A stretch of 64,000 bases of DNA, from NCBI RefSeq assembly GCF_927797785.1, contig NZ_CAKMLL010000099.1, forward strand, positions 1 through 64,000. Direction: 5' to 3'. The notes beneath the pieces are model-generated. The model was not told the DNA's origin, did not search any database, and was given only the letters and a program-made list of their open reading frames with translations. Shown here one piece after another: positions 61,611 to 62,708 of this stretch. Position 1 is the first letter of the stretch. Every line of letters starts with the position of its first letter. This DNA is from Candidatus Nitrotoga sp. BS. GTDB taxonomy: Bacteria; Pseudomonadota; Gammaproteobacteria; Burkholderiales; Gallionellaceae. The translations under genes were made by a program, and so were the position numbers.

Positions 61611-62179
61611 AAATGAAGCTGCACTTTTGGGCTGTCCAAGTTCATGGTGTTGTTGGACGAAGCCGCTACGCGGAGAATACGGTTTTGACGTACCAAGAAT
61701 ATAACCTCATCTCTCTAGCTAGGGATTTTTCCATTACTTACTACGATGTACGTCTTACCTGATGGAAGTATTGTCTGACGCAAATTTCGAACTGAACTGC
61801 CAGCAGTCTCATCTAGATAGAGCACCTGAAGCTCAAAGGCCTGCAGCTTAAAACATTTCCGCCCAAGTCACTAGCCAGACGCTGATTCGACGACCAGTTT
61901 GCTCCCAGCATTTTATGTTCCCAGAGTTAATTTAGAATGAAATTTAACTGTCTCTAATCGGAGACCGTTAATTAAATTTATATTCAGCATGTTATGAGCG
62001 TTTATAAAAAAACGTCCCCGATAAACGACATGAATATTTTTAATATCCGCCAACCACCACTCTTTCTTACTTAACTTATTGTTTTATATTAAAAATAAAT
62101 ATTGGCATTAATTTTGCTTACTAGACAAGCACTGGCACAAGGTCAGTTTTCAATTTACTTTTTTAAAGGAAACTAAACA
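61611..62179. other. Non-coding stretch upstream of the small peptide genes
   Basis: About 570 nt, becoming AT-rich from 61920 on. It contains a GTCCAA/TTGGAC hairpin (61634-61658) without T tail, a GTCTC/GAGAC inverted repeat near 61950, and the sigma-54-type promoter at 62103-62119. No gene recognised. Confidence 0.5.
62103..62119 (+). promoter_or_regulatory. Sigma-54-type promoter upstream of the small peptide genes
   Basis: TGGCAT-TAATT-TTGCTT: the invariant GG (62104-62105) and GC (62116-62117) have exactly 10 nt between them, the sigma-54 spacing. Transcription would start near 62129, about 50 nt before the ATG of the first peptide. The AT-rich region upstream would suit IHF binding. 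An enhancer site was not identified. Confidence 0.55.
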
Positions 62180-62332
62180 ATGAAAAGCTTAATTAATATG
62201 CTGGTTTTTACTTTGGTAGCTGCTGTCAGTTTACCGGCATTTGCAAATGCCCCTCAGACGGTGGAGGAGTGCCAACAGGTTTTTGCTGGTAACGATGCCA
62301 AAATTCAGGCTTGTATTGATGGCTTGAAGTAA
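62180..62332 (+). CDS. Small secreted two-cysteine peptide, copy 1
   Basis: 50 residues: a signal peptide (KSLINMLVFTLVAAVSLPAFANA, predicted cleavage after residue 24), then a mature peptide of about 26 residues, with C31 and C45 (13 residues between) and the ending KIQACIDGLK. AAAGGA lies 9 nt before the ATG. It is a paralogue of the peptide encoded 80 nt downstream and has its own terminator. The conserved Cys spacing suggests a disulfide loop. I know no family that matches; it could be a secreted signal, a bacteriocin-like peptide or a structural periplasmic peptide. Confidence 0.72.
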   Translation: MKSLINMLVFTLVAAVSLPAFANAPQTVEECQQVFAGNDAKIQACIDGLK

Positions 62333-62343
62333 TCATTAGGCGA

Positions 62344-62368
62344 CCCTCGGCAAAGCCGGGGGCTTTTA
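62344..62368 (+). terminator. Intrinsic terminator after peptide copy 1
   Basis: Eight-bp stem CCCTCGGC / GCCGGGGG (62344-62351 with 62355-62362, one T-G pair) with an AAA loop, followed by CTTTT. Located 12 nt after the stop of copy 1; the short T tail suggests partial termination, allowing some read-through to copy 2. Confidence 0.7.
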
Positions 62369-62412
62369 AGTGTGCTCCCTAAAAGAGCTGATATATTAAA
62401 GGAAAATGATTT

Positions 62413-62571
62413 ATGAAAAACTTCATGGACATGCTGGTTTTTGCATTGGCAGTTTTTGTTGCTTTACCTTCATATGCAACAAGTATCCCTCAGTCGGCAG
62501 CGGATTGCCAAAAAGCTCATGCGGGCGATAAGGTCAAAATCCAGGCTTGTATTGATGGCTTGAAAAAGTAA
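62413..62571 (+). CDS. Small secreted two-cysteine peptide, copy 2
   Basis: 52 residues, clearly homologous to copy 1: signal peptide (MDMLVFALAVFVALPSYA), C32 and C46 with the same spacing of 13, and the same ending KIQACIDGLK plus one Lys. AAAGGAAA lies upstream of the ATG. The mature part differs from copy 1 mainly between the signal peptide and the cysteines. Two terminators bracket it, so it may be transcribed by read-through or from its own promoter. Confidence 0.72.
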   Translation: MKNFMDMLVFALAVFVALPSYATSIPQSAADCQKAHAGDKVKIQACIDGLKK

Positions 62572-62575
62572 TAAG

Positions 62576-62608
62576 AAGGCCTCCGGCAAAGCAGGAGGCC
62601 TTGCGTAT
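62576..62608 (+). terminator. Intrinsic terminator after peptide copy 2
   Basis: Nine-bp perfect stem AAGGCCTCC / GGAGGCCTT (62576-62584 with 62594-62602), 9-nt loop, just behind the stop codon of copy 2. The following bases (GCGTAT) are not T-rich, so termination may be weaker on the plus strand. Confidence 0.6.
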
Positions 62609-62653
62609 GACCTCCTCAGAAATCTAATAATCAAGCCTTGTCTCGCAACGCGA

Positions 62654-62708
62654 CAGGGATAGGCCTTACAAATTACACAGCAAATGTAATTTGTAAGGCC
62701 TATCCCTG
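62654..62708. repeat. Perfect 23-bp inverted repeat
   Basis: CAGGGATAGGCCTTACAAATTAC (62654-62676) and its exact complement (62686-62708) with a 9-nt loop ACAGCAAAT. No T tail on either strand, so it is not a standard terminator. It could be a structured RNA, a protein-binding cruciform, the remnant of a mobile element end, or a bidirectional barrier between the peptide genes and rplU. Confidence 0.85.

Follow-up and report, generated by a model that had tools for sequence, protein, structure and literature searches.

Tandem genes for small exported two-cysteine peptides in Candidatus Nitrotoga behind a putative GlrR/sigma-54 control region

Two tandem ORFs encoding small peptides

The window analyzed here (the whole stretch of 64,000 nucleotides, positions 1 to 64,000 of contig NZ_CAKMLL010000099.1 of Candidatus Nitrotoga sp. 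BS) harbored two adjacent ORFs on the forward strand, encoding peptides of 50 amino acids (ORF 1, 62180..62332, C31-X13-C45) and 52 amino acids (ORF 2, 62413..62571, C32-X13-C46), both predicted to be exported. A preliminary description, made from the sequence alone, had presented them as tandem paralogs, and the two units indeed formed direct repeats (72% identity over 123 nt and 74% over 84 nt). By eye, both peptides start with a signal sequence of the Sec type, which ends in AFA or SYA; they also share the Cys-X13-Cys spacing and an identical KIQACIDGLK segment at the C-terminus, which reads KIQACIDGLK(K), so that each of these described traits was recovered. A ribosome-binding site, AAAGGAAA, was located 7 nt upstream of the ATG in both cases (62165..62172 for ORF 1 and 62398..62405 for ORF 2, both on the + strand), again as described; similar sites were found for ORF 1 in the aligned upstream rows, and that of ORF 2 was read from the sequence.

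The preliminary description had also given each ORF a hairpin terminator of its own, which held fully only for ORF 1. The sequence between the ORFs folds into a hairpin with a T-rich tail (62344..62362, + strand), a probable terminator that may be leaky, while the hairpin after ORF 2 (62576..62602, + strand) has a strong stem and no T run. ORF 2 had no recognizable promoter of either the sigma-70 or the sigma-54 type ahead of it on the + strand. Between these two genes and a rplU-like gene, positions 62654-62708 hold a perfect 24-bp inverted repeat with a 7-nt loop, whose arm was present, among 201 loci, only in four taken from the same place.

The structure model of the peptide contained two helices (residues 29-35 and 40-51) and was of moderate confidence (pLDDT 72.8, pTM 0.41). 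A fold search with this model returned nothing significant (best E 6.9, with a small ciliate pheromone fourth at E 9.6).

Distribution of the peptide family and selection

Homologs were searched in a same-family set of 158 genomes, 19 from the genus Candidatus Nitrotoga and 139 from other genera. Strong matches (E < 1e-6) were obtained in 10 of the 19 genus genomes and amounted to 21 copies at 15 loci, six of them tandem. The best match in the 139 genomes of other genera reached only E 0.009, and weak matches in two genomes (G148 and G063) were set aside because a pattern scan showed no ORF of this kind there. The genome under study carried three copies, the third lying on contig C74 and being 92% identical to ORF 1; a weak fourth match (contig C107, E 0.7) was discarded on the same ground. 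Among 399 genomes of the order, one further clear homolog was found in a genome of another family (G173, E 4.2e-13), with C-X13-C kept and 38-47% identity to 11 Nitrotoga copies. The homolog check proposed for related genomes accordingly came out in favor of the ORFs, with the cysteine spacing conserved as far as another family of the order.

Copies were under purifying selection. All 11 chosen pairs gave dN/dS values below 1, ranging from 0.06 to 0.65; ORF 2 and its counterpart in G100, for example, differed by 16 synonymous and 6 non-synonymous changes. Pooled over 18 of the 21 Nitrotoga copies, pN/pS was 0.29 in the mature part and 0.50 in the signal part, which bears out the earlier suggestion that selection acts on the mature peptide. 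The three copies excluded from the dN/dS work were one with a stop, one with an altered C-terminus and one of 93 amino acids. Two tandem second copies appeared decayed, through an internal stop in G110 and an altered C-terminus in G101. The ATG, the ribosome site and the cysteine pair were conserved among copies.

Since homologs with the same cysteine spacing occur in 10 of 19 genus genomes and dN/dS is below 1, the ORFs are more than chance reading frames. Judged by these comparisons of sequence, they are real genes of a family of predicted exported peptides that carries no family name. Searches of Pfam (six peptides) and NCBIfam (four peptides) gave only matches far below curated cut-offs; the commonest weak Pfam match, T4_Spackle (PF25676), scored at best 18.2 bits over the six peptides against a gathering cut-off of 27. 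No paper on such a peptide was found in literature searches, which does not establish its absence from print.

Control region of the leading ORF

Upstream of ORF 1, a sigma-54 promoter (-24/-12) was found on the + strand at 62103..62117 (TGGCATTAATTTTGC), preceded by two enhancer-like sites on the same strand. The far site (61949..61966, TGTCTCTAATCGGAGACC) and the near site (62013..62030, CGTCCCCGATAAACGACA) each match TGTC-N10-GACA with one mismatch and are 64 bp apart. The site of the activator GlrR/QseF has been published as TGTC-N10-GACA (PMC8745638, PMC4987338) and given as TGTN12ACA (PMC6075780).

In the aligned upstream DNA, all 15 leading Nitrotoga copies shared the promoter TGGCAT-N5-TTGC, 58-62 nt before the ATG, and paired TGTC-N10-GACA-like sites 64-65 bp apart. 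The near site was exact in 11 of the 15 and had one mismatch in 4; no copy had an exact far site, 10 carrying one mismatch there and 5 carrying two. Near sites in the genome under study begin with CGTC. The start of the near site lay 81-83 bp upstream of the -24 element in six copies and 90-92 bp in nine, a difference of about one helical turn. The G173 copy was preceded by TGTCACCTCAAGGCGACA and CGTCTGCAATCAACGACA, 67 bp apart, by a GGGC-N7-TTGC promoter whose -24 element is less typical (GGGC in place of TGGC), and by a similar 5' hairpin. Within the window, the enhancer pattern was not above chance (25 matches with at most one mismatch, 21.35 expected). The case for the sites rests on their conservation between genomes.

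Near the predicted 5' end of the mRNA, a stem-loop of the 5'UTR (CUGGC-ACAAG-GUCAG, 62132..62146, + strand) kept its five pairs in 16 of 16 sequences, G173 included. Four pairs were invariant and one varied (G-U, A-U, G-C), a weak sign of covariation. Slid versions were at most 36.7% paired, and shuffles equaled the observed pairing in 397 of 500 cases. The hairpin pattern alone was unspecific (15 matches in the genome, of which two were cassettes, and two control matches). A further site, at C5:8645 (TGTCTCTAAATGGCGACAT), was rejected as no peptide gene of this kind lies behind it; the pattern that had given it was not enriched in the genome (14 matches against 12 in the control).

In the sequence, the pair of enhancer-like sites is followed by the sigma-54 promoter, the 5' hairpin, the leading ORF and a hairpin, with a second ORF in 6 of 15 loci. 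Between the two cassettes of the genome under study, similarity runs from about the far site into the terminator. When neighbors were compared across 16 loci, the commonest family occurred at four loci and a few others at two or three. Because no neighbor family was found at more than 4 of the 16, the cassette appears to be stand-alone and dispersed.

Sigma-54 activators of the genome

The genome encoded six PF00158 matches above the cut-off, four of them strong: NtrC and PrsR (both over NCBIfam cut-offs, TIGR02915 in the case of PrsR), a PilR-like protein and a GlrR-like protein. The PilR-like protein (L099) is presumably a type IV pilus regulator. The GlrR-like protein shared 57% identity with E. 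coli GlrR across 429 amino acids; the GlrR model was its best NCBIfam match, but the score of 604 bits was below the equivalog cut-off of 763. The stretch RNRTEFYKLL, taken here to be the recognition helix, was identical in the two proteins. The GlrR-like gene shared an operon with genes for a kinase and a lipoprotein. This lipoprotein had no NCBIfam match and no BLAST match to E. coli QseG at E 0.001; it is QseG-like by place and lipobox only.

Within the genus, GlrR (E up to 1e-12) was present in all 10 peptide-bearing genomes and in 3 of 9 peptide-free ones (G104, G107 and G111), and the six genomes without GlrR all lacked the peptide. This co-occurrence gave a Fisher p of 0.003, or 0.022 in the 15 genomes at least 90% complete, values from which shared ancestry is not removed. 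Three of the six GlrR-free genomes were less than 90% complete. On the evidence of sites and co-occurrence, the cassette promoters look GlrR/sigma-54 controlled.

Similar control regions in other genera

A combined promoter-and-site pattern matched 15 times in the genus, exactly at the 15 cassettes from which it was built. It matched 14 times in the other 139 genomes, and the control gave two matches in all 158. Of these 14 matches, five were read; one of them, in G017, has a small exported ORF behind it. In G017 and G113, both of other genera, two sites spaced by 66-67 bp come after glrR, then a sigma-54 promoter and a small exported peptide. These were 2 of 30 glrR surroundings; the other 28, including all Nitrotoga ones, displayed no such control region beside glrR within the stretch scanned. 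The glrR-linked peptides of G017 and G113 are Ala/Lys-rich, without cysteine, and unrelated in sequence to the Nitrotoga peptide.

Asr is a small Ala/Lys-rich periplasmic stress protein. Asr-type proteins and the G017 and G113 peptides resemble the Nitrotoga peptides in being small and exported, and in G017 and G113 also in having a similar control region. They differ from them in lacking cysteines, and their head part shows no visible similarity. In G110, a tandem second copy (L041:5041-5322) was lengthened to 93 amino acids by a Lys/Ala/Asp-rich repeat tail, which by eye recalls the glrR-linked peptide of G113.

A stricter pattern yielded 60 matches in 50 of 399 genomes of the order, compared to one control match. 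The genome under study fell outside it because its near sites begin with CGTC. Thirty of the 60 loci were read, one of them a Nitrotoga cassette. The second site lay 65-67 bp upstream of the first in 12 of the 30, and eight led to exported proteins of at most 181 amino acids (by eye; two were judged only by how the reading frame begins), including a BON-domain-like protein and a peptide of 66-68 residues (by eye). The remaining loci led to polysaccharide-type genes, sulfide-oxidation-type genes or coding DNA (by eye). This type of site is thus common, and not all matches need be GlrR targets. At three loci (L173, L190 and L191) whose genes are by eye DsrE-like or sulfide:quinone reductase-like, TGTCAATTTGTCATGACA or TGTCAAAATGACATGACA preceded the sigma-54-like promoter; these sites are perhaps used by another activator.

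Relation to known regulons

The closest known system is the GlrK/QseG/GlrR (QseE/QseG/QseF) regulon, with which the Nitrotoga cassettes share TGTC-N10-GACA-like sites upstream of a sigma-54 promoter and, in the same genome, an operon for a kinase, a lipoprotein and a GlrR-like protein. The GlrR/QseF targets named in the literature consulted are glmY, glmZ and rpoE (PMC4987338, PMC6075780), none of which is an exported peptide. Three sites were described at E. coli glmY (PMC6075780), against two at 64-67 bp here, and the Nitrotoga operon lipoprotein has no detectable homology to QseG.

PEP-CTERM genes, which depend on RpoN and probably on PrsK/PrsR (PMC9850573), likewise have exported products behind sigma-54 promoters, and PrsR is encoded in the same genome. 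The Nitrotoga peptides, ending as they do in KIQACIDGLK(K), are unlike these products in having no PEP-CTERM tail. Membership in this regulon was rejected because the motif upstream of three other sigma-54 sites in the genome is a different one (by eye). These three sigma-54-like promoters (L085 9337, L082 3177 and L083 3288, on contigs C74, C43 and C100) share a motif near TGTCG-N7-TTACA, possibly the PrsR site, and one of them precedes a PEP-CTERM-like gene (by eye).

Proposed function and alternatives

The preferred reading, held to be probable, is that the cassettes are dispersed GlrR/sigma-54-controlled genes for a periplasmic helical-hairpin peptide of envelope stress. The preliminary description had offered signaling, antimicrobial or periplasmic stress peptides as options, and the last fits best because the promoters look GlrR/sigma-54 controlled. 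Under envelope stress, the GlrK-like kinase would phosphorylate GlrR, perhaps aided by the operon lipoprotein, and GlrR would bind the paired TGTC-N10-GACA sites and open the sigma-54 promoter. The 5' hairpin might stabilize the mRNA, and partial read-through of the inner hairpin would give less of the second peptide. The resulting burst of small peptide would be exported by Sec and trimmed to about 28-30 residues, and the mature peptide would fold into a small hairpin of helices held together by a single disulfide. In the periplasm it may then buffer or report damage to the envelope. Sequence, together with work on enteric bacteria, is the basis for the steps as far as the promoter; what the peptide would do is deduced only from its regulator and location.

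If this reading holds, the two mini-ORFs of a nitrite oxidizer become a testable regulon, as regards both when the peptides would be made (envelope stress, via GlrR and sigma-54) and where they would be sent (the periplasm). The small exported peptides behind glrR in related genera provide a comparison set, and the finding as a whole suggests that GlrR targets outside enteric bacteria may include exported peptides. A wider proposal, still rather doubtful, is that GlrK/GlrR governs dispersed cassettes of tiny exported peptides in many Burkholderiales-type bacteria, the peptides feeding back on the sensor or patching the envelope. If true, the small-RNA/rpoE switch of enteric bacteria would work elsewhere as a peptide switch.

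Signaling stays a rival, in the form of a ligand that controls GlrK sensor activity by feedback, or of a cell-cell signal. The peptide appears to be expressed in dependence on a system whose sensor faces the periplasm, the compartment in which the lipoprotein QseG of E. coli contacts QseE (PMC6075780). However, the unrelated, cysteine-free peptides linked to glrR in G017 and G113 favor a bulk property over a fitted ligand, which makes this role unlikely.

Sigma-54 control might also be exerted by the PilR-like protein, present in the same genome, in which case the peptide would have a part in surface or pilus physiology. TGTC also occurs in PilR sites, as their half-site. Nevertheless, the near site shares its palindromic form with the published GlrR site, a similar control region follows glrR directly in G017 and G113, and the peptide is confined within the genus to GlrR-bearing genomes, so that PilR control seems distinctly unlikely.

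A secreted antimicrobial (bacteriocin-like) peptide or a toxin would agree with small size, export, two cysteines, several copies per genome and a presence that varies between genomes. The G173 copy gave a weak NCBIfam match to a Shiga toxin B model, signal part included, but at E 0.0044 its 17.1 bits fell far short of the cut-off of 201. Set against this are net charges of -2, +2 and 0 in the three peptides computed, hence close to neutral, and a leader that is by eye of the Sec type and not of the double-glycine type of class II bacteriocins. Neighbors differ at most of the 16 loci, leaving no constant immunity or transporter gene beside the copies. Moreover, no match was obtained in phages searched with the L043 peptide or in plasmids searched with the G173 peptide. 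This role, also among those first offered, is very unlikely.

That the transcript acts mainly as a regulatory RNA with incidental ORFs, as might be thought from the conserved 5' hairpin and from the known GlrR/QseF targets of enteric bacteria (small RNAs such as GlmY, and rpoE; PMC4987338, PMC6075780), is most improbable given dN/dS below 1, the conserved ATG, ribosome site and cysteine pair, and an Rfam search that gave nothing better than E 4.9 in 61900-62700.

The third copy of the genome under study has neighbors that agree with the envelope-stress reading, although they are no test of it: it adjoins a small stress-type gene cluster (L005:185-4674) with CsbD-like, several BON-like, DUF883-like and glycine-zipper-like genes (by eye).
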